Shown: piece after piece, positions 1 through 38,675 of the stretch | How the letters are laid out: each line of letters begins with the position of its first letter | Position numbering within the stretch: the stretch's first letter is position 1 | Assembly (NCBI GenBank): GCA_018813285.1 | Contig: JAHJBY010000033.1 | Location: 133,157-171,853, forward strand | Origin: Candidatus Omnitrophota bacterium | GTDB taxonomy: Bacteria > Omnitrophota > Gorgyraeia > Tantalellales > Tantalellaceae | Direction: 5' to 3' | DNA length: 38,697 nt | Position numbers and translations under genes: made by a program | Notes under the pieces: generated by a model | Told to the model about the DNA's origin: nothing | Database searches by the model: none | The model's input: the letters and a program-made list of their open reading frames with translations, nothing else

Positions 1-240
1 TGAAGGAGGCGCCCTGTAATCCTGTTTATGTCCGAGAACGAAGAACACATTACCCACGGCAAGCGAAACAGCGAAAAGTACGGGGGCTAAAGGAACCTGG
101 CCGGCAAATACCGGTATCGCGTAATTGATAAGATTAATCCCCAGAAATTTCGCGAAGCCAATAGAACCTATCATAAAAAGTGACGGCAGCCCCCTGTAAA
201 CAAGTTCTTCTTTGAGAACGTTTAACGCATCTATCCCAAG
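1..240 (-). other. CPBP (CAAX-like) intramembrane protease motifs at the truncated end of the giant protein
   Basis: Residues 4284-4289 read EELVYR, the EExxxR first motif of the CPBP family, directly followed by RGLPSLF as in many members. After two hydrophobic stretches comes NVFFVLGHK, giving FxxxH with F4340 and H4344, the second motif. The third motif (H or N in a later helix) would lie beyond base 1. CPBP proteins include the CAAX prenyl proteases and bacteriocin-immunity Abi proteins; the Glu and His residues form the active site within the membrane. The 55-residue spacing between motifs 1 and 2 is somewhat longer than usual. Confidence 0.72.
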
Positions 241-3200
241 CCTTTTGCCTGCGCTTTTTGCTTTGCCTGAAATGGTATTTTGGGCCTGCTGAAAGTAAAA
301 TTCGGCAAGCTTCATGTCATCACTTTGCGGGCTATCGGATCTTTCCTGATATGCGATGGCAAGCCCGTAATACAGGCGGCTAAGTCTTTCGGGATTGGGT
401 CCGCCCAGACGGTCCTTTTCCGTGTGGATCTCCTCTTCGGCTTCTTTTATCCTCTCATCAGGCGGTTTCGCCTTTTCTTCCGTTTCGATCGCCGTCGGCT
501 CTTCCGCAGGCTTTACAGCTTGTGAACTCTTCTCCTTTAGAACGTCTATATCTTCCTTTGTCCGTTTTAGCGTCCCCTCGGCTTCATCTTTCAATTTTCT
601 TAATACGTCTTTTATTTTTCCAAGTTTCCTTGACCTCAATTCATCCTGTTCCTTTTCGAACGACCATTCGGAAGTTTTCGGCCTTTCACTTTCTTTCTTC
701 TGCCCGTCCAGGTAAGAATCTTCCACAGGCTTATCAGGTTCATATGCCGGTTTATCCAATTTCTCATTTATGTCTTTCAAGATTTCCGGCCAATCCTCCG
801 GCCGTTTTTCAGGCGGTATACCCATAATCATCTCAGCCATCGCAAATAATATTTCCTCGTTTTGCCTATAATCAGCAACGGTTTTTTCCCACCCGCCTTT
901 TCCATCGACATAATCCGTGATATCATTAATAAGTTTCGCGGTTTCGTCCCCGGTCTTTTCATCTTTGCCCTTAAGCTGCAGGAACCTCACAAAGGCGAGC
1001 CGAACTTTAAACCAGGAATCTTTCTCACTTTCTTTTTCTTTCATCTTCTCGAGTTTTCTCGCGTTTCGCTTGTTCTTCAAAACCCTGACTATCCTTTCCG
1101 CCGCCTCCGGCAAAGGCTGTTTAGCTTCTCCGGCTGCCTTCTTCTCATAATCGTCAAGAACGTGCTGCATGAACCGCGCGGTTTCACCAAAATCGGGATA
1201 CACGATTTTTTTACGAATCGCGGCTACAGCGGGAAACGCCAACGCAATCAGCGTGATCAGGCCGACCGCGAGCGCCACGTAAGAATAACTCCGCAAAGAC
1301 GTCAAAGTGATAGACGAGGTTATAATCGCCGCGGAAACCACCATCTTCTTCAAAAGCTTCAGCAGAGACTCTTTTGCTTCATCCAGCTTTTGGGCCGCGT
1401 TCTCAAGTTTTTCACTTGTGACGAGATCCTTCTCTTTCCTGGCCATTTTGTTCAAAATATTTTCATGTTCCCGGTAATCCCTCAGGTATATGACCAACGG
1501 CCGCACGACATAGTCCGCAAAAAGCGCCGCCAGGACAACAACCACCGTCGCCGCTATCATATGCGACACGGAAATAGCCGAGATCATATAGCCAACCGCA
1601 AAGATCAGTGCCCCGAAATCTTTAAAAATTTTCATTATCTTCGACGTAAAAATCTTTTCAGGGACTTCGCTTTTCTGTTCCCCGAATTTCGTATAAGCAA
1701 ACTCTTTGTAATAATCGACTTTTTTACCGCGATCTTTTATTTTAGCGATATTGCGAAGGGCTTCCTTCCTGTCTTTGGAATCAAGCGCGAATCTCGCGAG
1801 AATCGTTCTCATGTTATCTCTCTTTTCTCCGTCAATTTTCGGGTGCCCTATCTTCATCTTCTGCCACCATTTTTCATCATCACCAAGCGCCGCGCGGGCA
1901 GCCTTCTTCACCTCATCCTTCAATGTCGGCCCGCCCATCATCCCTTCCATCCCCGCCCCCCTAAGCATCTCAGGTGATATTCCCGGAGGTATTTTCGGCG
2001 ACGGTTCCTCTTTGATCCCAAGTTCGTCTTTGGCGGTGATAATCTCGTTTCCAATTTCGGCGATAGCGCTGTTTACGTCACGGTCCCGGACGTCCCCCGT
2101 CACGGCTAAAATGTGTTTTTGAAGCCGGAGCGCGAATTCATAATACTTTAACGCTTTTTCCGTATCCTTCTTTTCGCCTTCTTTGTCTTCTTTTAATTTT
2201 TCTGCCTGTTTTTTTACTTTTTCAAACAAAATCCTTATTTTTTTATCCGGCTCTCCATCCATAGTTGCGGCCATAACAAATCTTTCAACCAGATCGACCG
2301 GCACACTTTCTTGTGCCCCCAGGCCAAGATGTTCGAGCAGTATCTTTTCTGCCTTGCTTTTTTTTGCTCTTTGTTCGGTATCTGTCACTTCGCTAAACCC
2401 CAGAATCCCCTCCGACGCCGCGGCCGTTCTTCGCCGCTCAAGCTTGAGCCAGCTATCGATACGGGCAGAAAACCATTTCTTAAACGTGGGCCATTTCTTC
2501 TTACCAACAAAAAATAAGGGGGCTCCTATTATGAGAACGCAACCGAGAGTGCCGCCAGGTAAACCGCCGGCGCTAAGAGCGCCGAGACCTTTACCGCTGA
2601 ATAAACCTGTCACGCCTGTCCAGATAGAAGCAAGAACCCCCATCTCCCACAAAACAGCCAGGCCGATCGCGACACCGGCCGTGATAACCGCGCCCTTTGC
2701 CAGTTTTCTCCGGAACGGTTTCTTTATTTTGTCCGCTTTCTTCCACAGATAAATACCCCCGGCGATCAAACTGACACCGGCTGTTATTTTTAAGCTCCTT
2801 ACCAGCATAGGGCTAAGTGACGCCACTGCCGTTTTAAGCACCGGTGGAGTGATAGTAATTGCGCCGAAAATAATCCCCCCTGTATATACCAAGGCTGAAA
2901 TTAAAAATGTTAAAACCATCACGCCGCCTACAAACACAAAGGCTTTCCTCCATGCCGGATGATACCCCGAGTCCATCCATTGAAATAACCACTCAAATAA
3001 ATTATAAAAAAGCATTAAGATCCGGTTCGCCTCGGGCATCGCTACCGCGGGAAGCCTTTTTGTCAGATAAGCGTCATCGACATATTTCTCGCTATATTTG
3101 TCCTGATTTCCGATCTTTAAAACGGCCATGCCGGCCTTAACAGCGATCTCAATCTGGTCCCGGGGCACGTCGTCAAGCGTGTGTATCTCGCCGAGAACGA

Positions 3201-6200
3201 GATCCGTCGAAATGCCCCTGCCTGTACCAAGCCTGTGAACGGTTGTCATGAAATCTCTGGAAAATTTTCCTTCTCCGGCATCTTCGACAAGAACTACCCC
3301 GTCACGGTTATTAGCGATCCTTTTCCTTGTTGCCGTATTGCCATCGCCATCAATGTACGTCACATTAAACGCCGCGATACGCGTTTCCGGAGACACCCGG
3401 CTCAGCCTCCCGGAAAGTTCAGCATCTTTCAGCCCGGGATTCACCCTTTTCTCGCTGTCGGCGATCGCCTTATCCGCTTCGAAACTGCGTGCATCTCCGA
3501 CTACACCGATACCTTTTATTTCCAGTTTATCCACACCTTCTTCTTCCCCACCGGGATAATTCACGTCGTTTACACCCAGCACAAAGTTCTTACCCGACTG
3601 CCGCATTTTAATGACTTTTTCTACCAGGTCTTTCGTATTCGACGCGGAAACATCGCCACCGATAACCAATATTGCGCAGCCCTCCTTTAACTTCCCTTCC
3701 GGCAGAGAAAAAGCTGCTCTTCTGCAATCACCCTCGTTTATCGGATCCGTCTTCCCTTTCTGCCCGTAATATTTCAGGACAAGGACATCACCGTGCCAGG
3801 TAAATGTCCTTGCTTTTATCACGATCCGTTTGTCACCCTGCATCTCATACTCATCCACGATGACACTCACATTCTTTTTATCTTCCTGGTTTATATTTTT
3901 TTCATCGCCGATCAGTTCATTAACTGAAGCTAACAGTTTTTCCTTTTCGTCATCATCATCAGGCATACCACCGAACACGTTGATCCCGGACTCAAGCATT
4001 GGCGATTTCCCGTCGGACGGCACCGGGCGTACTGCCATCGCGCGAACCGCATCGACATCACTCTCCGCCGCGTCCCGAAGCTTCTCTTTTTTCGCCTTCT
4101 CTTCTATTTTTTCCGCTTTCCTTCTCTCCTCTTCTTTCTTGACGCTTTCCTCTATAGACAGCTTTTCCTCCTCCAACTCCTTCTCCACTTCGGTGCCCGG
4201 CGCGGCGGGATCCATTCTCGCGGCGTTTACCCAGTCGGACACCTCCGTGCTTTTTTTGAGCTGCATGGTCTGTCTTGGAGAACCCCCCTTGATGTTTATA
4301 GGGTCGTTCACCTGCGGCCTGCTTCCCTGGTCAATCCCCTTCCTGATCCAGCCGATCTTGCCTTCACCTTTAGCAAAACGGCGGTACGCCCCGGCAACCC
4401 CTCTGCCGACACGCGTTACACCGATCCACCTCATGACTCTTTCAAAATCGCTGGGAGGCTTTTGTTTCGCTTCAGCATATGCTTCACTCACCATCTTTCC
4501 AATGACTTCGCCCTCCATCTTCTTATCCGTCCCCTTCTTGTTCCGGTCTCTTTCCATGAGCTGCTTCTCAAAAAACGCCCTGGCGAAGTTTTTACTGTAT
4601 TCCTTAAGAAACTTCTTTGTGGCTTTTCGGATCTCGCTTTTATATGACTTGACCTTCTCCTTGACTCTGCCTTTTTGCGCCTTAGAAAAAATCCTGCCTT
4701 GTGTCTCCTGCCACTTTTCGAAAAGGTCTGACTTGATCGCCTTTCTGCTCCATTCCAGGCATTTCATGCTGATGTGTATATGTCCAGCAAACCCTGTTTT
4801 AAGTGTCTTCCTGAGTTTTTTGAAAAACCTGATTAGTTCTTTCGAGCTTAAGCCTTCTATCGCCTCTTCCAGAGTTTTCACGCTGCCGTTTTCCCTCACG
4901 GGAAGAATTTCTTCTAGTGCCCATTTGATCTGACTTTCTTTTATTCCCAGAAATAACAGGTTCTCTCGCAATAATTTTCCGTTCTTTTTTCGTTCCTCCG
5001 CCATATCCCCTTTCTTTGCCTTCTTCTCCTTTTTCACTTCCTCGATCACGTCTTCAAAAATTATATCAAAGATATCCTCCACCATCTCCTTGGCACCATA
5101 AGAAGCCTCGTCCTCTCCACTCTTGTTCTTGCGAATATCCTGAACCGTTTTGTCGTGAATGGCCTCGAACTCCTTTTCTTCTTCCTTTTCCAATCTAAGC
5201 ATCTCCTCATAATCCGCCTGGGAGAAAGGGGTGCGCATAATACGGTTATCCGCGGCCATCTTGTCAATATTCCGCAGAGCAAGCTCAAAGAACAGGTCGA
5301 GACGACCCTCCACCTCAATCACACGCTTACGCACTTTCTGTCGCTGTTCTTCTGCTAAGTCGTCCTGTATTTTTTCCGACTGAGTTTTTAACTCCAACCG
5401 TTTCAATTCTTGGGTCAGTTTCACCCATTCGGTTCTGAGGTCGCGTACTCCCTCAAAAAGTACATCTCTCATCTCACCATACGAAGACATCCGATTAAAA
5501 AACCACCTTCTCCTCTTCTCTCCCCAGGGGATGTACCCGTCCCGGTTGAGATCACCTATGCCGCGTTCCATTATGAACGAAAAACTGCCTTCACCATCCC
5601 AGTCTTCCGGCCGATTCTGGTCACTTGCCTCCATGATGATACATTCCGTAATACGCCCGGCATCCCATTCCCTTGCCGATCTCCCGAGAACCTGGTCACA
5701 CAGCCTTTTTGTCCCCATTTTCAAGGAATAAAGCTGAAGGCCATTTATGCTGGCGGCGGTAACGACCTGGAACGCGTTAAGAAACATCTGTTCCGCGGTT
5801 ATGATATTATCAAGTCTGTCAAGTCTTTCTTCCGCGTCGTCCTTCGCTTTTTTCGCCTGTTTAAGCCCGGCAATATCGTCCTTGTCTCTCACTTCCACGT
5901 ACCTCTGCCCGGCCCTAAACGCCGCCAACCCGTACTCCCCTGCGATAGAGGAGCCGCTTAAAAGTTCAAATTCCGTTTTGTTCTCCACCGCTGCTTTTAT
6001 CGTGTTTTGGAGGCGATCCGAATATTTCTTTAACTTTGTGTTAAGTTCGATTCTTTTTGTTAACAATTCTTCTGTTATCTTTCCAATATCATATTCTTGC
6101 CCCTTTTCCGTCTTTTCTATCGCCACTTTAAGAACGCCCGTTGTTATCTCGCTGACAAGCTCCCGCGCGCCTTCTATCGTACCGTCTTCCCTTTCCTCCG

Positions 6201-9200
6201 CTTCGATAGTGTTTCTCAGATTTTTTTGAGCCTCCGCCAGGCTTTCTTCCGCCTTCCTCGTTCTTTCTTTTGCTTCATCAAGATCAATACCGATCATTTT
6301 CGCCAGTTCCCGCTGCGCCTTTCTTAACTCTTCCTGTTTCTCTTTGCGCTTCTCCGAATCTCCACCTTGCGAGCTTCTTTCACGAAACTTTTCTTTCAAA
6401 TCATTACAGATCCCGCGTATCTTTTCCGTCTGAGCCATCGCCTGCGACATCGCCTGCGACATGATTTGCTCCATCTTTTCCATTTTCCTACGAAAATCAG
6501 AAGTGTTTATCACCGTTCCAAACCTTTTGTATTCGTCCTCTTTCAAAATCTCATCAACTGACTTTTTCTCCTTTACCATTTTCCGTAACATTTCATTCAG
6601 TTTATTTCTAGCTCCTGTCTCCGTCAGCCCCTGAGCTTCGAATCCCGAACAGATCCCGGAAAACAGTGTTTCGTCGGCAATTTTTCCGACATCAATACCA
6701 TTTTCGATAACCTTCCGGTATTTATTTATCCCTTCACTAAAACGCAAAGGATTCATGTTTATGCCCCTCCCGATAATAGGTGTGCCGATGGTAACGTGCC
6801 CGTTACGGCCGCCGTACGCCTCAGCCAGATCCACATCCTCGTTAACCCTGATGAGATGTAAATATTCGTCAACAATGCCCAGATCCCGCATCGTTTCAAA
6901 AACTCTTCGAGTCTGGATACCGTTGGACAATATTATTGAGATCGGCGATGACTCGTTGTCTGCCCGCAGCCGTTTAACCTCTTCAGCGAGTTTCTCGCAA
7001 AGGTCATCCAACGTCATCGCATAGATCGGCTTGCCCTCCACGACGATCCTTTCAGCGAATCTCGGCATCTGAAGTATGTCCTCTTTTTTCTTCCCTAATA
7101 CTTTCCCCGCTTCCTCCGCCACCTGTTCTTTCGGAAACGTGCCGGTAAATCCGCTCCAGCCTTCGAAGCTCTCTATCACGTTTATACCGCTCAGTTTACT
7201 GCTCGTCTTGTTGTCTTCCTTTATCCTCACCTTATTCGTACCGGTTGTTATACTGTGTTTCGCGTCCAGATACCTGCCCAGGTCGGACAATCTCCTGTCG
7301 GTAAGCAGACCGCTCTCTTCCATCAAGCTTATCTCAGCCCTGACGGCCCACTCTTCCCCTTCGACTTCCCATTCTTTTTTTACAACTTCATAATCCTTTC
7401 CCTTCTCATACGTATATTCGACAATAAGCGCTTTGATAACATGCTTCCGAAACTCTTTTTGTGTAAGCTTTTTCCTTTCCACCTTCCAGTCAAGACCTAA
7501 ATATAACTTCTCGATAAAGCTTTCCCCAACGCCGGTCAAAGTAATAGTCTTTTTAGTCTTGTCCATCACAAGAACCGATCTGTCCGCCGCTACGGCGTCT
7601 TCAGAAACCAGCTCCATGCGTCTGCCGACCTGGTATCTATCCACCTGCGCTTCCTGCCTTACGCGATACGCCAACATAGCGAGGTTATTATGAAAAACCT
7701 CTGCCTCCTGTGTAACATTCCCGCCAAACTCAGCGATAATGTAATCTGTCGAAAACTGATCCAGAAGGACCTCGTCGAGTTCGTCTATGTTGCCGTAATA
7801 AAAACTAAATTTTTTTGATGTTTCATTGTAATTGTCGCCAAAAATTTCCTTTCTTTCTTTTATATCTTTCTGGATCATAAACGCGAGATTCGCCATGCTT
7901 ACATACGTGATCCCCGCCTGTTTAAAAGCACCTTTCAGGTCTTCCGGCTCACTTCCATTATTTATGTGTCTCACGGTTTTTGGTGCATCGCGAAAACCTT
8001 TGCCGAGAAAACGTTCATACACATCCCCCATGCCGTGTTTTCCCGTGCTCGCGTTCCGTTTCGCGAGGACATCGTTCGTCTCTAACGAAAATACCGGCCG
8101 TCCCTCCGCGTTCAGGGCCTTAAGGCCGATCGCGAGCGCCGCGGCCGTCGTTTTACCTTCACCTGTCGGAAATTCAAGAAGCTTTCCCAGTACCAGTTTC
8201 CCGGAAGCAAGGCAACGGTTATCCTGCCCTTTCGGTCCCCAGCCTTTTTCAAGAAAAATGGTATAAAGAAACGCCGCGGTTCCCTTTACCACAAATTCAC
8301 GATGATACTCGTTATCCTCGTCATATATGGCTTCGCCCTGTTCCTTCGCCAGGGTCTCCGCGCGTTCGCGTCGCGCCGTTATTTTCTGGTTTATCGCCTC
8401 ACCAAAGGCGTTAAGCTGTCCGCTTTTAAAATCACCTTTTTCATAGAAGTCCTCTTCCCTCAGGGATAGGCAATCCGGGAGTTTCGTTAGCGAGTCTTCT
8501 CCTTTCCGCGCGTTGTTTATTGCTTCGAGCAGCTCATTACAGTTCGCCTCGTCCTCAAGCTCTTTAAGCACCGCGTTCATCTCTTCTTCCGTAAGGTCCT
8601 GCATAAGCGCGGCTTCACAGGAAAGCCGTGCGTGTTCCCTCTTTGTCCTGTACGTTTCCGCGGATTTTTTGATCATGAACGCGTATCGCGCGTCTTTAAG
8701 GAATTCTTTTTGCAAGCTTTGCTCGTCTTTTTTGTGTTTTTTCTTCAAAGGCAAAAGCCTCTCCCGCAGAAAGTTATGGACATCAAAATCGCCGTCTAAA
8801 TCGATTTGTGCCGCGAATTTTAAACACGCGTCATGAGCGTCTTTAACGTCAGCTTCTGTTACCATTAACCTCTCCGTTAATTCTTCCTTTTGAGAAACCA
8901 ATCGACCCTTTTGGGTTTCCTCGGCCTTTTCGATATCCTTTTCTTTCTTATCTAATTCACCCACTAAACTCTGAGATTCTTTGTTTTTTTCGACATACGC
9001 GTCGAACAACTTTTTAAAGTCCTTAAGCGTCTCATCCGGGTCGCCTTTGTACTTTGTAAGACTCTCCTCTCCGATAATCCCCTCCTTTACAACCATATTT
9101 ACACCGTGAAGAAGCTTATAGTATGAAGACTGGGCGTATCCAAGCTTCTCGAAAACTTCCAACAGACGATCCCTGTCCTTCTGTTTACCTGCACCGATAA

Positions 9201-12200
9201 AATCCTCGAGACCAGACAGAATAGCGTAGCGTTCTTCCGCCTGACGTTCCTCATTACCTGACCCTTCACGCCGGTTGGCCAGATGGCCGTCTATCTCGTA
9301 ATTTTTCAAGTGCCGGCTAAAAACAGAAATGGCATCCCGGTCTTCATCGTTGGAAACATCAAAATTATCCGGATTGAATAAGGCTGCATTAAAATATATG
9401 ATTATAGTGTTTTTGTCTTCCGAGGTTTCCATGAATATCTTTTTTTCGCTATTCTCGACAAATCCGAACTTTACAATTTTCCCCCGGAATTTCCCGTCAC
9501 TACTCCATAAAACTTCGCGCAGTTCATTTAAAATCAAACGGAAATTATTCAGATATGTTTGTCCTCTCTCAATAATTATGCCATCATCTGAAATCTCTAA
9601 TGGTATTTTCTGCTCGAGAGTGTTGAAATCGTACATGGCCCCCGGCCGCGCGCGTTCCGTCGGCTGTCCCAAAAATCCCGATTTATCCGCAAACTCCTCC
9701 GATAAATCCATGATCTTCTCCAGAAGCAATTTCCGAATTTGCGGCGTCAATTCCCCGAACACCCCAACAAATTTCTTTTCGAATTTCATTTTCTCCATGG
9801 CACTCGCCACCTGAGTAGCGATATATTCTTCTTCAACTTTTTTAGCCACCTCGTGCGCTTTTTTGTGTATCTCTCTAGATTTTTCTTTGTCTTTGCTTTC
9901 TATTTTTAAAAGCCAACCTACGATTTCTTCGGCTGAGGCTCCTGTATTTTTCATTTCTTCTTTGACTTCAGTCAACAATATTTCCCTCTCTGTTACTTCA
10001 TGCCTCACAATGGATTCCAGGGCCAACTTCCCGGCGAATTCTTTGTTAATGTTCTTGTTAATGTTGACAATTTCTTTTGTTTTCTTCTTTAAATCACCTC
10101 TGCCTATCCAAACAACATCACTCCTTCTCGCACAGTGGGAAACTATCCTGTCCGCGATAACGACAGTTTTCCCTCTCATCCGAATAATCTCGATATCATC
10201 TAATTTACTTTTTTTATCGTTTTCCTTACATACCCGCTTGTAGAGAGATACCAACCGGCCTAATGTCTCTAGATCTATCCTTTTCGCGTCCAACAACTCT
10301 TTCAGGTCTCCCTCTTTCAGTAAAATACTTAAAAGCTCATCCTGTTTATCATTCAGCATTTTTGTCTTTTTAATATCACTTTCTACGTTCTTTAACGCTT
10401 CCTTTATCCTTTCAAACACTCTATTTATCTTGCTGTTCACTTCACCATGATCAACTTTACTGCCCTGCCACGAAATAGCTGGGACTTTTTCATGCACAAA
10501 ACTCTTTCTCTCGACCTGTTTTTCGGCAGGCGCTCCTTTTTCGATTTTTTCCTCATCTTTAAGGCCGGCAAGTTTTTCTTCAGCAGCAGGGGTTTTCTCT
10601 TCAACCTGTGCCTCTTCCCTCCAGCCGGATACGATATCCGCTATTATGGACTCCTTCGTCCCTTTATCGACGGTTATGCCGATACGACCCGCTATTTTTT
10701 CAATGACGTTTTCAAGTTTCTCCGGATCAAGTCCGCCTTGCTTGTTCAAGATATTCTTTTCGTTCCATTCGATATACTTCGCCAGCCGCTGCCGCAGTTC
10801 TTGAAGCCTCATCTCCCTGATCTTGCCGGCGAGTTCCTCTCCGCGGGAGATCGCTTCACCCGCGGCGTCTTCGGCCAGCGTCACCGACGTTATAAACCTT
10901 GCCTGACCCACGGCTTCTTTCGTGACACCATCAAACTTTTCCAGTTTCACTTTTCTTTTTCCGGACGCGTCCTTCTCCGTCAGGTTGACCCGATACATAA
11001 AATTTCCTTTATCTGTCTCAAAATATATCTTTACACGGTTCTCACCTCTTTTCTTGTCTCTTTCGATTATCATGGAATCGAGCAGGCTTCGCAGGAATCG
11101 CTTGTTTTCTTTTGATCGGTCTATGTTGATTTCGCTTTTTTCTATCAACTCGGCTTGCAATCTTACGAATTCTTTAAAGAAATCATTCTTCGTCTTCTCC
11201 ATTCCCGACTGGCTGAATCTCCCTGCTTCCATGTTTTCAAGAACTCGTCCACCGAAATATGCCGCCAGTGTTTTCATTTTTACTTTAAAACCCGCTTCGT
11301 CCTTTCCCGCGCCGCGCAGGATGTTTTTCATAACGTCGAAGAACGACGGGACCGCGAGGTAGTCTCCCGATCCGGTGTAATGTTTGTATTCGTTGGTTTT
11401 GTTCGTCAGGATCGTGATATACGGGCGTTTACCGGTTTTGGAATTGAAACGCGGGAGCAGGATCAGGTAGGATACCTTGTCCGTCTTCAGGATATCGGTG
11501 ATACCTCTTGTATGGAACCCGCCGGTAACGACGGCGGCGACACTGACCCCCTCTTTTCTCATCTGTTTGATGGTGTTCTCCACCATGCGACTGTTCCTTC
11601 CCGTCGCCGCTTCGTAAAAGTCTACCGCCTGCGGGAGTTGTTCAAAGAGCCGCGAAACCTCCGCAAGGTCCCGCGGGATCGGGATGCCGTATCTTTTATA
11701 ACGCGCTTTTATGAAATCCAGAAAAGCGGGCCACCTGAAATCCTCTATGCGGCTCTTGAAATACTTGAGCTGGCCGCTGGTGAGCCTTACGGCGAAAAGG
11801 TTGCGCAGTATTTCCGCGTTTTTCAAAAGCGCGGTAAGTTCTCTTTCATCATCGTTCCTGACGAGCTTTTCTCTTATCCGTCTCTCATAATCGTCTATCT
11901 CGTCCATGAGCCCCCCTATATCGATGGACTCGTACAGGTTGACATAATCGCAGAAACCTTCGAGGTCGTCGTAATCCTCCCGCGGAAGGGCTTCCGCTTT
12001 GGCAAGCGTGAGGATGTAAGAATAAAACTGGCTCTTTGATATCTTGCCGAGCTTGAACGAGAGGCTCCTGAGTATGAGTTCTTCAAGGCTGTCTCTTTTG
12101 AGCCGGTTTGTCAGGATATCGAGCGCGGCGTCTCTCTGGCGATTGACGGCGGCGTAATTGACGGCCTTCTCGATTTCGGCGGCCTTCATGAGGGCGCCTA

Positions 12201-13059
12201 CGTTCGGGTACCTCGCACAACCCACCCCGCGCTTTCGGCCTATCTCTTCTATGAAATACCAGCGTTCGGTGAAAGCTTTACCGTTATCGTTCGCAAGGAC
12301 GGAGTTCCTGTTAAGCGCTTTGAGCTCTTTTGAAAATACATGGTCTTCCAGGGCGTATAACGCCTCTCTCAGCGCCGCGACAAGCTTCATGTTGCGTTCC
12401 TTTTTATCCAGGAGCCCCATGAAAGCGTGATAATTCTTTAGATACAGATCGGGAGAGTCTATCCCGTAAAGCGTGACCGGTGTTTTTGAAAGCGCGGCGA
12501 AAAATTCGCCGGCGGATATTTTTCCTTCGCGCATCAGATATTCCGCTGTCATCTTTTTAGCTTCTTCGCCGGGCAAAGCGGAGATCAGGCTCATGTCGAT
12601 ATATCCTTCTGAACCTTCGATACCCACAAAACGAACGTCATAGTTTATGGCGAGGTTATCCAGAACCGAAACTATGGATTCCTGCGCGCCGTAATTATCA
12701 TGAACGTCTTTTATGTTTATGATGACTTCTTTTGAATCGTAAATTTGGACATCACGGGTAATACCGATATCGCGTGAAATAGAGAAATTATGAAGATTGA
12801 TGTGAAGGCCGCCTTTCGCGGCATTGGCAGCCGATATAGGCGCCTCCCGCGCCTGGGAACCACCGGCGCCGGAGGCGGCTTGCGCTACTCCCAATTGCTG
12901 AAAAAAGAACACAAAACTTACAATAAGCGCGACGCTTTTGAAAAATCCCTTGTGGCGCGAATATCCCCCGGATATACTTAAACTGTCACCGTTAGCGGAA
13001 CAGTCGTGATAATTATCCGTTTTTTTAGGCTTCACAAGGCTATCATAATAATCAGTCAT
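1..13059 (-). CDS. Giant multidomain protein with SecA-like motor and membrane C-terminal half (3' end outside window)
   Basis: The minus frame starting at ATG 13059 stays open to base 1: 4353 codons with no stop, so the gene is incomplete here. An in-frame stop at 13096-13098 fixes the upstream limit. Layout by residue: long basic/polar tail 1-37; hydrophobic segment about 39-58 followed by an AQAAS cleavage-like site; TraB/ChaN-like domain about 85-540; charged coiled-coil-like tracts to about 1540; SecA-like ATPase about 1540-2275; more charged helical sequence; EF-hand-like DLNRDGYI at 2503-2510; membrane clusters about 3374-3520, 3814-3852 and 3906-3950; then a last hydrophobic region from 4284 with CPBP protease motifs. 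Composition is rich in K and E, without a frameshift. Giant genes are known in Omnitrophota; the specific job of this one is unknown. A motor plus a membrane protease suggests protein movement or processing at the envelope, which is inference. Confidence 0.93.
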   Translation of the reverse strand, partial: MTDYYDSLVKPKKTDNYHDCSANGDSLSISGGYSRHKGFFKSVALIVSFVFFFQQLGVAQAASGAGGSQAREAPISAANAAKGGLHINLHNFSISRDIGITRDVQIYDSKEVIINIKDVHDNYGAQESIVSVLDNLAINYDVRFVGIEGSEGYIDMSLISALPGEEAKKMTAEYLMREGKISAGEFFAALSKTPVTLYGIDSPDLYLKNYHAFMGLLDKKERNMKLVAALREALYALEDHVFSKELKALNRNSVLANDNGKAFTERWYFIEEIGRKRGVGCARYPNVGALMKAAEIEKAVNYAAVNRQRDAALDILTNRLKRDSLEELILRSLSFKLGKISKSQFYSYILTLAKAEALPREDYDDLEGFCDYVNLYESIDIGGLMDEIDDYERRIREKLVRNDDERELTALLKNAEILRNLFAVRLTSGQLKYFKSRIEDFRWPAFLDFIKARYKRYGIPIPRDLAEVSRLFEQLPQAVDFYEAATGRNSRMVENTIKQMRKEGVSVAAVVTGGFHTRGITDILKTDKVSYLILLPRFNSKTGKRPYITILTNKTNEYKHYTGSGDYLAVPSFFDVMKNILRGAGKDEAGFKVKMKTLAAYFGGRVLENMEAGRFSQSGMEKTKNDFFKEFVRLQAELIEKSEINIDRSKENKRFLRSLLDSMIIERDKKRGENRVKIYFETDKGNFMYRVNLTEKDASGKRKVKLEKFDGVTKEAVGQARFITSVTLAEDAAGEAISRGEELAGKIREMRLQELRQRLAKYIEWNEKNILNKQGGLDPEKLENVIEKIAGRIGITVDKGTKESIIADIVSGWREEAQVEEKTPAAEEKLAGLKDEEKIEKGAPAEKQVERKSFVHEKVPAISWQGSKVDHGEVNSKINRVFERIKEALKNVESDIKKTKMLNDKQDELLSILLKEGDLKELLDAKRIDLETLGRLVSLYKRVCKENDKKSKLDDIEIIRMRGKTVVIADRIVSHCARRSDVVWIGRGDLKKKTKEIVNINKNINKEFAGKLALESIVRHEVTEREILLTEVKEEMKNTGASAEEIVGWLLKIESKDKEKSREIHKKAHEVAKKVEEEYIATQVASAMEKMKFEKKFVGVFGELTPQIRKLLLEKIMDLSEEFADKSGFLGQPTERARPGAMYDFNTLEQKIPLEISDDGIIIERGQTYLNNFRLILNELREVLWSSDGKFRGKIVKFGFVENSEKKIFMETSEDKNTIIIYFNAALFNPDNFDVSNDEDRDAISVFSRHLKNYEIDGHLANRREGSGNEERQAEERYAILSGLEDFIGAGKQKDRDRLLEVFEKLGYAQSSYYKLLHGVNMVVKEGIIGEESLTKYKGDPDETLKDFKKLFDAYVEKNKESQSLVGELDKKEKDIEKAEETQKGRLVSQKEELTERLMVTEADVKDAHDACLKFAAQIDLDGDFDVHNFLRERLLPLKKKHKKDEQSLQKEFLKDARYAFMIKKSAETYRTKREHARLSCEAALMQDLTEEEMNAVLKELEDEANCNELLEAINNARKGEDSLTKLPDCLSLREEDFYEKGDFKSGQLNAFGEAINQKITARRERAETLAKEQGEAIYDEDNEYHREFVVKGTAAFLYTIFLEKGWGPKGQDNRCLASGKLVLGKLLEFPTGEGKTTAAALAIGLKALNAEGRPVFSLETNDVLAKRNASTGKHGMGDVYERFLGKGFRDAPKTVRHINNGSEPEDLKGAFKQAGITYVSMANLAFMIQKDIKERKEIFGDNYNETSKKFSFYYGNIDELDEVLLDQFSTDYIIAEFGGNVTQEAEVFHNNLAMLAYRVRQEAQVDRYQVGRRMELVSEDAVAADRSVLVMDKTKKTITLTGVGESFIEKLYLGLDWKVERKKLTQKEFRKHVIKALIVEYTYEKGKDYEVVKKEWEVEGEEWAVRAEISLMEESGLLTDRRLSDLGRYLDAKHSITTGTNKVRIKEDNKTSSKLSGINVIESFEGWSGFTGTFPKEQVAEEAGKVLGKKKEDILQMPRFAERIVVEGKPIYAMTLDDLCEKLAEEVKRLRADNESSPISIILSNGIQTRRVFETMRDLGIVDEYLHLIRVNEDVDLAEAYGGRNGHVTIGTPIIGRGINMNPLRFSEGINKYRKVIENGIDVGKIADETLFSGICSGFEAQGLTETGARNKLNEMLRKMVKEKKSVDEILKEDEYKRFGTVINTSDFRRKMEKMEQIMSQAMSQAMAQTEKIRGICNDLKEKFRERSSQGGDSEKRKEKQEELRKAQRELAKMIGIDLDEAKERTRKAEESLAEAQKNLRNTIEAEEREDGTIEGARELVSEITTGVLKVAIEKTEKGQEYDIGKITEELLTKRIELNTKLKKYSDRLQNTIKAAVENKTEFELLSGSSIAGEYGLAAFRAGQRYVEVRDKDDIAGLKQAKKAKDDAEERLDRLDNIITAEQMFLNAFQVVTAASINGLQLYSLKMGTKRLCDQVLGRSAREWDAGRITECIIMEASDQNRPEDWDGEGSFSFIMERGIGDLNRDGYIPWGEKRRRWFFNRMSSYGEMRDVLFEGVRDLRTEWVKLTQELKRLELKTQSEKIQDDLAEEQRQKVRKRVIEVEGRLDLFFELALRNIDKMAADNRIMRTPFSQADYEEMLRLEKEEEKEFEAIHDKTVQDIRKNKSGEDEASYGAKEMVEDIFDIIFEDVIEEVKKEKKAKKGDMAEERKKNGKLLRENLLFLGIKESQIKWALEEILPVRENGSVKTLEEAIEGLSSKELIRFFKKLRKTLKTGFAGHIHISMKCLEWSRKAIKSDLFEKWQETQGRIFSKAQKGRVKEKVKSYKSEIRKATKKFLKEYSKNFARAFFEKQLMERDRNKKGTDKKMEGEVIGKMVSEAYAEAKQKPPSDFERVMRWIGVTRVGRGVAGAYRRFAKGEGKIGWIRKGIDQGSRPQVNDPINIKGGSPRQTMQLKKSTEVSDWVNAARMDPAAPGTEVEKELEEEKLSIEESVKKEEERRKAEKIEEKAKKEKLRDAAESDVDAVRAMAVRPVPSDGKSPMLESGINVFGGMPDDDDEKEKLLASVNELIGDEKNINQEDKKNVSVIVDEYEMQGDKRIVIKARTFTWHGDVLVLKYYGQKGKTDPINEGDCRRAAFSLPEGKLKEGCAILVIGGDVSASNTKDLVEKVIKMRQSGKNFVLGVNDVNYPGGEEEGVDKLEIKGIGVVGDARSFEADKAIADSEKRVNPGLKDAELSGRLSRVSPETRIAAFNVTYIDGDGNTATRKRIANNRDGVVLVEDAGEGKFSRDFMTTVHRLGTGRGISTDLVLGEIHTLDDVPRDQIEIAVKAGMAVLKIGNQDKYSEKYVDDAYLTKRLPAVAMPEANRILMLFYNLFEWLFQWMDSGYHPAWRKAFVFVGGVMVLTFLISALVYTGGIIFGAITITPPVLKTAVASLSPMLVRSLKITAGVSLIAGGIYLWKKADKIKKPFRRKLAKGAVITAGVAIGLAVLWEMGVLASIWTGVTGLFSGKGLGALSAGGLPGGTLGCVLIIGAPLFFVGKKKWPTFKKWFSARIDSWLKLERRRTAAASEGILGFSEVTDTEQRAKKSKAEKILLEHLGLGAQESVPVDLVERFVMAATMDGEPDKKIRILFEKVKKQAEKLKEDKEGEKKDTEKALKYYEFALRLQKHILAVTGDVRDRDVNSAIAEIGNEIITAKDELGIKEEPSPKIPPGISPEMLRGAGMEGMMGGPTLKDEVKKAARAALGDDEKWWQKMKIGHPKIDGEKRDNMRTILARFALDSKDRKEALRNIAKIKDRGKKVDYYKEFAYTKFGEQKSEVPEKIFTSKIMKIFKDFGALIFAVGYMISAISVSHMIAATVVVVLAALFADYVVRPLVIYLRDYREHENILNKMARKEKDLVTSEKLENAAQKLDEAKESLLKLLKKMVVSAAIITSSITLTSLRSYSYVALAVGLITLIALAFPAVAAIRKKIVYPDFGETARFMQHVLDDYEKKAAGEAKQPLPEAAERIVRVLKNKRNARKLEKMKEKESEKDSWFKVRLAFVRFLQLKGKDEKTGDETAKLINDITDYVDGKGGWEKTVADYRQNEEILFAMAEMIMGIPPEKRPEDWPEILKDINEKLDKPAYEPDKPVEDSYLDGQKKESERPKTSEWSFEKEQDELRSRKLGKIKDVLRKLKDEAEGTLKRTKEDIDVLKEKSSQAVKPAEEPTAIETEEKAKPPDERIKEAEEEIHTEKDRLGGPNPERLSRLYYGLAIAYQERSDSPQSDDMKLAEFYFQQAQNTISGKAKSAGKRLGIDALNVLKEELVYRGLPSLFMIGSIGFAKFLGINLINYAIPVFAGQVPLAPVLFAVSLAVGNVFFVLGHKQDYRAPPS
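6240..8460 (-). other. SecA-like preprotein translocase ATPase domain inside the giant protein (about residues 1534-2274)
   Basis: The motif order matches SecA closely. Walker A is FPTGEGKT (K1636), followed by SLETNDVLAKRN, matching the SecA TVNDYLAxRD stretch, and ITYVSMANLAF, matching ITYGTNNEYGF. Walker B is DELDEVLLDQ (1759-1768). A PPXD-like region follows, with ITLTGVGESF and GKDYEVV, matching the SecA substrate-binding domain. KLSGINV and then GFTGTFP (1971-1976) stand for SecA MTGTA, and VTIGTPIIGRGINM (2089-2102) for VTIATNMAGRGTDI. After it, MSQAMSQAMAQTEK sits where SecA has the long scaffold helix. SecA uses ATP to push polypeptides; this copy keeps the ATPase residues, so activity is plausible. 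No zinc-binding SecA C-terminus was seen. Confidence 0.88.
11440..12810 (-). other. N-terminal TraB/ChaN-like domain of the giant protein (about residues 85-540)
   Basis: After the signal/anchor the protein has a beta-strand followed by DVHDNYGAQ (D118-V119-H120-D121), then a second strand with VGIEGSEG (E148), and near the end VVTGGFHTRGI (H516). A strand with HD, a strand with an acidic residue, and a late G-x-H turn are the pattern of the TraB/ChaN/EreA-like fold, which includes haem-binding ChaN and esterase-like EreA. The middle section is mostly helical and much longer than in ChaN. Assignment is by motif order only and is tentative. If right, the two His and the Glu would form a metal- or haem-type site on the extracytoplasmic side. 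Confidence 0.45.
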
Positions 13060-20455: not shown

Positions 20456-20496
20456 AACCAAAGTGAAGTAAAAACGAGAATTCATTACAGGACGAC

Positions 20497-20524
20497 TGAG
20501 CACTGAAAGCTGAAAACTGATAAC
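20497..20524. repeat. Degenerate 7-bp tandem repeat (site A)
   Basis: Four consecutive heptads all begin with TGA: TGAGCAC, TGAAAGC, TGAAAAC and TGATAAC. The array ends one base before the stop codon of the inositol monophosphatase gene at 20526. It is the smallest of four such arrays in the window. Confidence 0.7.
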
Positions 20525-22463: not shown

Positions 22464-22482
22464 CTCCCTCGCCTCCTTCGTT

Positions 22483-22608
22483 TTTCAGCTTTCAGATATC
22501 AGCTTTTTAGGGCGAAATATTTTTCGCCCCTACGATTCACGATTCACCGCTTGACCCTTGACCCGTGCCCTTTGCCCATTCACTGTGGACTATGGACCGT
22601 GGGCTACT
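22483..22608. repeat. Degenerate 7-bp tandem repeats with a central palindrome (site B)
   Basis: Left arm: TTTCAGC, TTTCAGA, TATCAGC, TTTTTAG (22483-22510). Right arm from 22532: ACGATTC twice, then units drifting through GACCCTT, GACCCGT, GCCCTTT, GCCCATT to GACTATG and GACCGTG in constant 7-bp phase up to 22608. The right arm runs into the stop codon of lpxA (22607-22609). Neighbouring units differ by one to three bases, while distant ones share little. Confidence 0.8.
22510..22529. repeat. REP-like palindrome
   Basis: GGGCGAAA, loop TATT, TTTCGCCC: a perfect 8-bp stem with a 4-nt loop. No T run follows on either strand, so it is more like a dispersed palindromic element than a terminator. 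It splits the heptad array of site B in two. Confidence 0.55.
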
Positions 22609-35168: not shown

Positions 35169-35669
35169 CTAAAATTTTACTGTTTTTTTCCGAGCGCCGC
35201 CCATGTACACAAAACTTATGGCCATCGCGAGGGCGTCACTCACGTCAGCCGGTTCCGGAAGCCGCCTCAGCCTGAGAAGCGTTTTTACGGAACCCTGCAC
35301 CTGTTGTTTGGACGCATGACCGTTCCCGGTGATCGCTTTTTTAATGCGCGTAGCAGGGTAATTCACGAGTTCCACGCCATAAAGGCCGCATGCCAGGCAA
35401 ACCACACCGCGCGCGTGTCCCATAAGAATAGCGGTAGCCGGATGTTTATAATGCGAATATATCTTTTCCAGGACCAGAACATCCGGTTTCTCGGAACGGA
35501 TTATATCCGACAAACTATTGAATATATCGGCCACTCTCGTCTGGATATGATCACCGGCCTTCGTCCTTATCACCCCGGCTTCCACAAGACGCATTGCGCC
35601 GGGACTTTCGGCTTCTATCAAACCGTACCCTGTTCTAATCAATCCTGGATCTATTCCGAGTATTCTCAT
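35169..35669 (-). CDS. ruvC: Holliday junction resolvase RuvC
   Basis: 166 aa from ATG 35669 (MRILGIDPGLIRTGYG), the family start. The open frame continues to 35732 only because the heptad repeat upstream has no stop in that frame. Acidic catalytic residues: D7 in GIDPG, E in LVLEKIYSHYK, and the two Asp of DVSDALAMAI near the C-terminus. It cuts junctions processed by RuvAB. Ribosome site weak (GGACTATAAA, made of repeat sequence). Confidence 0.96.
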   Translation of the reverse strand: MRILGIDPGLIRTGYGLIEAESPGAMRLVEAGVIRTKAGDHIQTRVADIFNSLSDIIRSEKPDVLVLEKIYSHYKHPATAILMGHARGVVCLACGLYGVELVNYPATRIKKAITGNGHASKQQVQGSVKTLLRLRRLPEPADVSDALAMAISFVYMGGARKKTVKF

Positions 35670-35760
35670 TTTATAGTCCATAGTCCACATTGTCACCCCA
35701 AAGTCCTGTATTCTGACCTCTATCTCTGACATCTATGGACTATCGACTGTGGACTGTATT
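35670..35760. repeat. Degenerate 7-bp tandem repeats (site C)
   Basis: ATAGTCC occurs twice in tandem (35673-35686), and CTATGGA, CTATCGA, CTGTGGA and CTGTATT run in phase at 35733-35760, directly into the yebC stop codon at 35761. The middle is more diverged, with one phase slip. The tract fills the whole space between yebC and ruvC and supplies the ruvC leader. Confidence 0.78.
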
Positions 35761-36513
35761 CTAATCCTCTATTTCTTCAAGTATTTCATCCGGGATGTCA
35801 AAATTTGAATATACGTCCTGGACATCGTCGTTATCCTCGAGTTCTTCTACAAGTGCAAGAATTTTACGGGCAGTTTCGACATCCTCTATCCTGACAGTAT
35901 TATTGGGGATCATGCTCAATTCGCCTGACTCTATTTTTACGCTTCTTTTCAAAAGTCCCGCGCGAACCTTGTCAAAATCCTGCGGTGGGCATGTTATTTG
36001 AAAAAAATCTTCGTCAGAGGTAAAATCGTCCGCTCCGGAATCGATCGCGACCGCCATCAATTCTTCCTCGTCCGCGTCATCGGTTTTCACCAAAAATATG
36101 CCTTTTTTTTCGAACTGAAAAGCGACAGACCCCGCGCCGGCCATATTCCCGCCGCGCTTCGCGAAAATACTCCGCACTTCGCTGGTGGTTCGATTTCTAT
36201 TATCCGTGAGCCCCGCAACTATCACGGCCACGCCGCCCGTGCCGTACCCTTCAAAGGACACGTTCTCGTATGAAACCCCCTCAAGTTCACCGGTTCCCTT
36301 TTTTATAGCGCGTTCAATATTATCAGCCGGCATATTGGCGTCTTTGCCTTTCTGGACAGCAAGCCGGAGCCGTGCGTTGGATTCAATGTTATTCCCGCCT
36401 TCCCTCGCCGCCACTGTGATCTCCCGGATAAGCTTTGTAAAAAGCTTACCGCGTTTCGCGTCAAGAGCGCCTTTTTTATGTTTTATGCTCGACCATTTGG
36501 AATGACCGCTCAT
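35761..36513 (-). CDS. yebC: YebC/TACO1-family protein
   Basis: 250 aa from ATG 36513 (MSGHSKWSSIKHKKG, the family start); the frame opens to 36603 only through the heptad repeat. Blocks DAKRGKLFTKLIREITVAAR, NMPADNIERAIKKGTGE and YGTGGVAVIV are complete, and the acidic C-terminus (EELEDNDDVQDVYSNFDIPD) is typical. YebC proteins bind the ribosome or DNA; recent work on relatives points to help with proline-rich stretches, and older work to transcription control. It sits upstream of ruvC, its usual neighbour in many bacteria. Confidence 0.96.
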   Translation of the reverse strand: MSGHSKWSSIKHKKGALDAKRGKLFTKLIREITVAAREGGNNIESNARLRLAVQKGKDANMPADNIERAIKKGTGELEGVSYENVSFEGYGTGGVAVIVAGLTDNRNRTTSEVRSIFAKRGGNMAGAGSVAFQFEKKGIFLVKTDDADEEELMAVAIDSGADDFTSDEDFFQITCPPQDFDKVRAGLLKRSVKIESGELSMIPNNTVRIEDVETARKILALVEELEDNDDVQDVYSNFDIPDEILEEIED

Positions 36514-36536
36514 TAGTGCCTCCAGATAACAAATTT

Positions 36537-36641
36537 CGTAAATCGCGGATCGTGAACCGCGGATGACAACTCGTAAATGGTTAATGGTAAATACACCATT
36601 CACTTTGAACCATTCACAATCTGCTATTCACTATTCGTCTC
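36537..36641. repeat. Degenerate 7-bp tandem repeats, 15 units in perfect phase (site D)
   Basis: Fifteen heptads with no phase slip. The left part alternates CGTAAAT, CGCGGAT and CGTGAAC; then GGTTAAT and GGTAAAT; the right part alternates TCACTTT, TCACAAT and TCACTAT with GAACCAT and CTGCTAT. The tract fills the gap upstream of yebC and overlaps the last codons and stop (36624) of the EF-G-like gene, so that protein's final residues (NSE) come from repeat sequence. Confidence 0.85.
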
Positions 36642-38675
36642 TTTCTTATTTTCCGCTATAATCTTCTGGGCCACGTTAGCCGGAACCGCCTCATATCTGG
36701 CAAATGACATCGCATAGGTGGATCGTCCCGCTGTAATGGACTTAAGTTCATTAGCATATTTGTACATCTCTTCCAAGGGGATCTCCGCATTCACTATCTG
36801 CATACTACCGTCAGAGTCCATACCTTGAACCCTTCCGCGCCTGGTGCTCAAAGAACTTGTCACATCCCCCATGCTCTCTTCCGGGACAGCAAGCTCAACA
36901 TTCATGATCGGCTCAAGAAGAACCGGTTTTGAATTTATACATGCCTCACGAAACGCGTGCGCGGCGGCTACTTGAAAAGCAACATCCTTTGAATCCACCG
37001 GATGTGTCTTTCCGTCATATACTGAGACTCTCACATCAACAACCTGGAATCCCGCCTGTATCCCTTCATCTAAAGCTTTTCGAATGCCTTTTTCACAACT
37101 TCCGATCAGCGGCTTGGGTATAACTCCTCCAACGATATCATCAACAAATTCAAACCCTTCCTCGCTGCCAAGCGGAGTTACGCGGAGCCAGACTTCCGCA
37201 AACTGCCCGGCGCCTCCCGACTGTTTCTTATGCCTGTAATGCCCCTCACCGCTAACTGAAATGGTTTCCTTGTACGCGACTTTCGGAGTACCTATCTCGA
37301 CGTCAACACCATAACGATTCCTCAAGCGATTGACCATGGTCTTTAGATGCAGCTCACCCATGCCGGAGATGACAAGTTCATGCGTCTGTTTATCTCTCAA
37401 CGTGGTGAACACCGGATCTTCAGCCGTCAGTTTGACCAGCGCGGCGGATATTTTATCTTCATCCGAACGGCTTTTGGGTTTTATAGAAAAACTGACTGCC
37501 GCCTCGGGGAAATAGATCTTTTTAAATTGTACGGGATTCTTTTCAGCACAAAGTGTATCGTTGGTTTCAGTGTTCTTGAGTTTAGCTATAGCCGCTATAT
37601 CCCCCGCTACGGCCGCATCCGTTTCTATCTGCTCTTTTCCTCTCACAAAAAACAGATGTCCAAACTTCTCGATTTCACCTTTTGTTGAGTTCTTAACCGC
37701 CTGGTTACCCTTTGCTGAACCCGACATTATCCGAAAAATTGAGATTTGCCCGGCAAACGGGTCTGAAATGGTTTTAAAAACCTGTGCCGAAAAAGGCAGA
37801 TCCGCTTTAGGTTCGATGAAGGACGTGTCCGAGCTCCCTTCACCCGAGGCCGTCTCAGCTGCTTTAGCATCCACCGGTGAAGGTAAATACTTGTTTATCG
37901 CCGTCATTATCTCATCAATGCCTATGCCCTTTTCCGCCGAGGCAGGTATCACCGGCATGATCTTACCGGAAACGCATCCGGCCCTGAACGCGCTATTTAT
38001 CTCATCTGGCGATAATGCCCCCTCCTCTATGTATTTTTCGAGAAGAGCGTCATCTGACTCAGCGACGCTCTCAGTAAGAGCGGCAGAAAGCCCTTCAGCC
38101 TTAGTTTTATCATCTCCTTCAAGTTTGTCCATCCCATCCTGTGTAAGGAGATTCACTACACCTGTAAAATTCGAGCCGGAACCAACCGGATAGCATATGG
38201 CAACAGCATTTCTGCCAATGGCCTTTTGGATACTCGCCAAAACCCCGGCAAAATCAGCATTGTCCTTATCCATACGATTGACAACGATAATAGCGGGAAG
38301 CCCACGTTTTTTCGCGAGCTTCCAGAATTTATTTGTTCCGACTTTCACTCCGCCACCTGCGTCAACCAGCAAGACCACGGCATCAGCCGCGGCCACACCG
38401 GCGGCAACGTCGCCCGAATAATCCAGAAATCCAGGCGCGTCAAGAAGGTTGACCTTAACGCCGTCTTTCTCATAAAATGAAACCGAGAGGTTTATCGAAT
38501 TTTTTCGATCTTTCTCGTCGTCATTGTAGTCTGAAACGGTCGTACCGGCGGAAACACTCCCTTTTCTCGAAATGGCTCCACCCTTAAACAGGAGATCCTC
38601 AACAAGCGTAGTTTTACCTTCGCCCGCATGGGATAAAAGTACAACATTGCGAATATCTTTCGTCGCGAAAGCCAC
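36624..38675 (-). CDS. Elongation factor G-like GTPase (EF-G2 type)
   Basis: 683 aa from GTG 38675, with AAAGGAGG 5 nt upstream. Domains I-V of EF-G are all present. GTPase motifs: SHAGEGKT (15-22), DAPGFLDYSGDV (from 79, where true EF-G has DTPGHVDF), NRMD (133-136, in place of NKMD), then KPLIGSCEKGI in domain IV and ELKSITAGRSTYAM in domain V. The changed G1 and G3 place it in the EF-G-like paralogue group rather than the main translocase; the normal fusA would sit elsewhere, near rpsG and tuf. The precise role of this group is uncertain. Its last codons are made of heptad repeat. Confidence 0.93.
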   Translation of the reverse strand: MAFATKDIRNVVLLSHAGEGKTTLVEDLLFKGGAISRKGSVSAGTTVSDYNDDEKDRKNSINLSVSFYEKDGVKVNLLDAPGFLDYSGDVAAGVAAADAVVLLVDAGGGVKVGTNKFWKLAKKRGLPAIIVVNRMDKDNADFAGVLASIQKAIGRNAVAICYPVGSGSNFTGVVNLLTQDGMDKLEGDDKTKAEGLSAALTESVAESDDALLEKYIEEGALSPDEINSAFRAGCVSGKIMPVIPASAEKGIGIDEIMTAINKYLPSPVDAKAAETASGEGSSDTSFIEPKADLPFSAQVFKTISDPFAGQISIFRIMSGSAKGNQAVKNSTKGEIEKFGHLFFVRGKEQIETDAAVAGDIAAIAKLKNTETNDTLCAEKNPVQFKKIYFPEAAVSFSIKPKSRSDEDKISAALVKLTAEDPVFTTLRDKQTHELVISGMGELHLKTMVNRLRNRYGVDVEIGTPKVAYKETISVSGEGHYRHKKQSGGAGQFAEVWLRVTPLGSEEGFEFVDDIVGGVIPKPLIGSCEKGIRKALDEGIQAGFQVVDVRVSVYDGKTHPVDSKDVAFQVAAAHAFREACINSKPVLLEPIMNVELAVPEESMGDVTSSLSTRRGRVQGMDSDGSMQIVNAEIPLEEMYKYANELKSITAGRSTYAMSFARYEAVPANVAQKIIAENKKETNSE

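Follow-up and report, generated by a model that had tools for sequence, protein, structure and literature searches.

The window, a stretch of 38,697 nucleotides from a Candidatus Omnitrophota bacterium (contig JAHJBY010000033.1), carries an EF-G-like gene (fusA), a gene of the YebC/TACO1 family and ruvC in succession near its right end. The 110-bp gap between the EF-G-like and YebC genes is filled, between the stop codon of EF-G and a point shortly ahead of the yebC ribosome-binding site, by a degenerate tandem array of heptads (Table 1). The fifteen in-phase heptads originally predicted at 36537-36641 were confirmed: identity over these positions is 0.51 at lag 7, 0.54 at lag 14 and 0.45 at lag 21, while the remaining lags give 0.19-0.30 (typically about 0.22), and the best-lag value (lags 3-30) was reached by none of 20,000 base permutations. 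The log-odds limits of the tract show those coordinates to be correct to about 14 bases. The array also makes the last codons of the EF-G-like gene, as had been predicted; these read ACG AAT AGT GAA TAG on the minus strand, with the stop codon at 36624-36626. The true start of yebC is the ATG at 36513, with GGAGG at 36519-36523, and relatives begin at the same residue. An Rfam search of the window gave no match. An intrinsic terminator was rejected, since no GC-rich stem with a T-run is found at the array site. Elsewhere, the minus strand of positions 1-13059 reads as a single open frame, about 4353 codons long, that runs past the edge of the window.

Table 1. Heptad tracts of the window and the genes flanking the array between EF-G and YebC (positions within the window).
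Feature	Position	Strand	Basis
Degenerate heptad array, about 15-16 units in a single 7-bp phase	36523..36636		Log-odds lag-7 segment score 14.1; 0/20,000 permutations
Forward half of the array, 8 units	36537..36592	+	7/8 units 1-2 mismatches from [CG]GTGAAT
Reverse half of the array, 6 units, [CG]GTGAAT word on the other strand	36593..36634	-	4/6 units nearest ATTCACC
EF-G-like gene, end codons and stop inside the array	36624..38675	-	Pfam EF-G domains; sequence
YebC/TACO1 family gene, downstream of the array	35761..36513	-	Pfam PF01709/PF20772; sequence
Second heptad hairpin, filling the yebC-ruvC gap, word TAGTCCA/TGGACTA	35670..35760		Inverted repeats; fold z -5.02; lag-7 identity 0.49
Mosaic heptad array, successive words TTTCAGC, ACGATTC, GACCCTT, GACTATG	22477..22604		Lag-7 segment; unit comparison
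Short heptad array, GACGACT GAGCACT GAAAGCT GAAAACT GATAAC	20491..20524		Lag-7 segment

The units of the forward half are CGTAAAT, CGCGGAT, CGTGAAC, CGCGGAT, GACAACT, CGTAAAT, GGTTAAT and GGTAAAT. Units 1-4 and 6-8 differ by one or two substitutions from [CG]GTGAAT, which is this genome's most frequent heptad word. The reverse half consists of ACACCAT, TCACTTT, GAACCAT, TCACAAT, CTGCTAT and TCACTAT. Here the units at 36593, 36600, 36614 and 36628 are one or two mismatches from the reverse complement, ATTCACC, and GAACCAT, the unit at 36607, lies as close to one strand of the word as to the other. Three units (GACAACT, the fifth of the forward half, CTGCTAT and TCGTCTC) fit the word poorly on either strand, and no two adjacent units are identical. 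The array forms an imperfect hairpin (RNA fold z -3.52) with inverted arms at 36577-36588 and 36609-36620. The change from GGTAAAT to TCACTAT, taken originally as drift of the unit, is thus mostly a strand switch inside one word family.

The arms of the second hairpin lie at 35673-35687 and 35733-35758. The ruvC open reading frame (35169-35732) was called 21 residues too long; its conserved start, MRILGIDPG, lies at about 35669, and the false extension is translated heptad hairpin. Such tracts are a warning for gene callers, as one creates the EF-G stop codon and the other falsely adds residues to ruvC.

The excess at lag 7 on which the original prediction hinged was found genome-wide: 332 kb of this genome, part of which was picked for holding ATTCAC arrays, contain 72 lag-7 tracts where a Markov shuffle gives 3. 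At lag 8 there were 20 tracts against 2, and lags 5, 6, 9, 10, 11 and 13 gave 2-14 against 0-3. Most lag-7 tracts are intergenic; on crude gene calls, 54 lie in gaps (1781 per Mb) and 18 in ORFs (60 per Mb), so that gaps are about 30 times denser. Contig C117 alone has 23 tracts in 14.4 kb of gap, and stretches not chosen for repeats have 5 in 10.2 kb of gap. The tracts start at a median of 3-8 bp past the upstream stop codon. Divergent gaps seldom hold them (1/16 and 0/11, versus 31/116 and 44/178 co-directional gaps). This placement on the 3' side fits either a function located there or plain avoidance of promoters and ribosome-binding sites.

The similarity of units falls with the distance between them through 0.60, 0.48, 0.375 and 0.29 to 0.25, the last being background, and arrays of genome G010 decay in the same way. 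The drift between neighbours is therefore real and is a general property of the heptad arrays in this genome. That nearer units are more alike, with a smooth decay, fits local copying such as slippage, the growth mode put forward originally. Neighbours differing at 0, 1 and 2 positions number 48, 160 and 161 in this genome and 4, 75 and 75 in G027.

Among related genomes, heptad gap arrays are common in G001, G010 and G013, present in G002, G027 and G032, and absent or nearly so in G009, G011, G016, G018, G022, G024 and further Omnitrophota genomes sampled. No second genome from the genus of the window turned up among the relatives; the genera of G013 and G027 comprise one genome each, and genomes sampled from multi-member genera have almost no arrays. 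The orthologous fusA-yebC gap is occupied by heptad tracts, of differing words, in G000, G013, G006, G010 and G002. It is 12-66 bp long and free of heptad tracts in G001, G003, G004, G009, G011, G015 and G016, and exceeds 200 bp, again free of heptads, in G017 and G018. The yebC-ruvC gap shows the same pattern across genera. In G004 (L033) the latter gap has a hexad tract, AGGTTC-like with a lag-6 identity of 0.53, where other genera carry heptads. Orthologous gaps hold unrelated words or no tract at all, and therefore local birth, or complete turnover, appears more likely than inheritance. The sequence comparison suggests that seven-base tracts are born again and again. With the same gap carrying different words or no tract in related genera, these genomes offer a comparative system for the birth, drift and loss of tracts. 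Exact ATTCAC[CG] triplets occur at more than 100 loci in many phyla, isolates included.

At least since 2007 it has been an unsolved question why seven-base units are the favoured long simple repeats of many bacteria. Published systems were likened to the window array from their published descriptions. Heptanucleotides were the most abundant long repeats in the 2007 survey of Mrazek, as cited in PMC4679880 and PMC4692102. As these papers describe them, the 7-nt long simple sequence repeats (LSSR) and cyanobacterial short tandem repeats (STRR) resemble the present tracts in their period, in their intergenic placement at many loci, in their sporadic occurrence between lineages and in the slippage proposed for them. 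The window array likewise has a 7-nt tandem period above chance, and tracts of its kind lie in many gaps of the genome. However, LSSR and STRR are mostly exact fixed words by the same accounts, whereas neighbours here are usually one or two bases apart. The TAACTGA direct repeats of Beggiatoaceae, Cyanobacteria and Bacteroidetes, many of them directly before start codons, are also heptads in gaps, patchy across phyla and mixed with other heptamers (PMC4679880). Unlike the window array, whose word is [CG]GTGAAT, they are one fixed word, nearly all direct, with no particular secondary structure predicted (PMC4679880).

The P6b hairpin of the trnL (tRNA-Leu UAA) intron of Nostoc and Calothrix contains the degenerate heptads TDNGATT and NNTGAGT, and its length changes by heptads (PMC4476775). 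By description it has degenerate heptads on both hairpin arms and a word replaced between lineages (PMC4476775); the window array and arrays of relatives share the first of these features, and words likewise differ between genera in the orthologous gaps. That hairpin, however, lies inside a group I intron, while the tracts described here lie between protein genes, that of the window between EF-G and YebC, with many words per genome. The GGGAATC or (GGGANTN)n repeats of Xanthomonas and Nostoc are described as heterogeneous intergenic heptads with fixed and free positions and some inverted pairs (PMC4692102). They are G-rich, with a G-quadruplex proposed (PMC4692102), whereas the window word is not G-rich. 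In Geobacter metallireducens, degenerate tandem heptads (MTYCTGA, GGACCGG) and octads (GTTGCTYN) occur in dozens of copies, and some are drawn as strand-switching pairs; according to that account, the elements comprise four or five units and mark predicted sites of regulators (PMC2700814). No literature on intergenic tandem repeats in Omnitrophota was found. Since degenerate heptads are already published (TDNGATT and NNTGAGT, PMC4476775; (GGGANTN)n, PMC4692102; MTYCTGA, PMC2700814), the window array is no new class, and the original view that known heptamers have fixed units does not hold.

On balance, the degenerate heptad tracts probably arise by slippage in 7-nt steps and fold-back copying, followed by point divergence, with imperfect forms surviving in tolerant 3'-side gaps. 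A short sequence past a stop codon would be copied in 7-nt steps by replication slippage. Occasional fold-back template switching would copy heptads onto the other strand, so that the heptads of one side are direct and those of the opposite side reverse-complement, and the units would afterwards diverge by point substitution. Tracts would last where promoter, ribosome-binding site and protein are undisturbed, in most cases in the stretch that separates a stop codon from the following ribosome-binding site. Mainly imperfect tracts would survive, perfect direct or inverted repeats presumably collapsing or being removed. In this genome the folding of most arrays is no stronger than that of the remaining gaps (median z -1.0 for array gaps versus -0.9), and fold-back copying is therefore unneeded for most of them. 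Two further observations speak against this account: identical neighbours are scarcer than in a young slippage tract, and uniform slippage with mutation does not predict the five fixed and two free positions of the G027 heptads (see below). Lost mismatch repair was rejected as a cause, because this genome has MutS, as do most members of its family that bear arrays, as was a reverse transcriptase as source, because this genome has no RVT_1 match. SbcD (TIGR00619) gave no above-cut-off match in 24/24 Omnitrophota genomes, while 13/14 control genomes match. Its loss may permit arrays but does not explain them, because genomes with and without arrays alike lack a match over the cut-off.

It is rather unlikely that the tracts are instead functional RNA or DNA hairpins between stop codon and next start, with a role in mRNA processing or stability or in translational coupling, and that their words change while the hairpin form is selected. 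The hairpin layout dominates in relatives, where gaps with arrays fold much more stably than shuffled sequence (median z -4.3, versus -1.6 for the remaining gaps); the window array and its adjoining gap (z -3.5 and -5.0) and the avoidance of divergent gaps in favour of the 3' side of genes also agree with such a role. However, array gaps in this genome show no such advantage, several related genera lack a tract in the orthologous gap, no terminator or T-run accompanies the array, and promoter avoidance would yield the location bias as well.

The hairpins of G027 (loci L239-L258 and L303-L311) have a fixed core, and 22/22 show the exact one-base centre TCAGC-N-GCTGA. The core TCAGC carries 1.3-1.9 bits per position and the two free positions 0.24 and 0.04 bits. 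Identical neighbours make up 10.6% of cases at the freer position, versus 18.3% in within-arm permutations and 30.8% from base frequencies, and in-register partners are complementary in 13.6% versus 28.8%. Compensatory pairing of the free bases was rejected, as the trend was reversed when tested. At one free position the left arm prefers C and the right arm A, apparently whatever the gene strand. A weaker alternation is seen for ATTCACN in this genome, while neighbours in G013 share variable bases more often than permuted ones (.53 versus.41-.45), in line with the slippage account. If perfect direct and inverted repeats were purged, the avoidance seen in G027 would follow, but the constant phase of its free positions would not; a fixed 5-base core with two free, mutually dissimilar bases is left unexplained by simple slippage. 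It is conceivable, if doubtful, that in part of the Omnitrophota gaps are repeatedly rebuilt by a process or reader working in 7-base steps, so that hairpin heptads keep a five-base core and two other bases are kept unlike their neighbours and in-register partner, the word being replaced between genera while gap position and hairpin form recur.

A protein reading a repeated 5-base core at a 7-base pitch, with two spacer bases, would account for the core, the exact centre and the two free positions of the G027 hairpins. Similar hepta- and octanucleotide elements of Geobacter were called predicted regulator sites by their authors (PMC2700814), and MacGregor proposed TAACTGA repeats as sites of translational regulators (PMC4679880). 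Such binding arrays are nevertheless improbable, as the word changes from one gap to its neighbour within a genome and from genus to genus, and with the many words of this genome one reader protein would need continual change. The 7-bp binding pitch considered in the original prediction finds no support in the window array, since the next gap and every relative use another word, but might apply to the heptad hairpins of G027.

Slightly less probable still is that the tracts belong to a REP/REPIN-like mobile family spread by a Y1 (RAYT) transposase. G013 has about 40 intergenic hairpins (loci L219-L238) in which heptad arms, A[GC]GTT[TAG]C, flank a conserved CCGCCGAAGGCGG double palindrome, as such a family might produce, and Y1_Tnp occurs in 9/12 genomes, with two copies here. 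Against this, the window array matches only itself in the genome and is no palindrome of many copies, heptad tracts are lacking within 1-2 kb of most Y1_Tnp genes, G024 shows no array in its sampled 20 kb despite four Y1_Tnp matches, and G019 has an array and no Y1_Tnp. A dispersed element was rejected for the window array, of which the rest of the genome contains no long copy.

Chance periodicity or assembly error, which the fragmented draft (146 contigs, some starting at or near heptad tracts) might suggest, can be dismissed as already refuted because of the genome-wide count, the permutations of the window array also standing against it, together with the same kind of tract in independent assemblies and isolates, e.g. 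of Terrimonas and Mesorhizobium.

Lag-8 arrays form a second class in this genome. One, an octad array of about 20 units built of ACACTCTG/ATACTCTG, lies at L019:2167-2345 (G000 contig C129). A dispersed heptad-built block, CTCGTCCCGCGTTGTGTGTCCGGCGTTATGCG, recurs in the genome at L012:18956-19105, L013:1415-1579, L029:7464-7600 and L011:4064-4205, and unit identity climbs again at a distance of 9-13 units.
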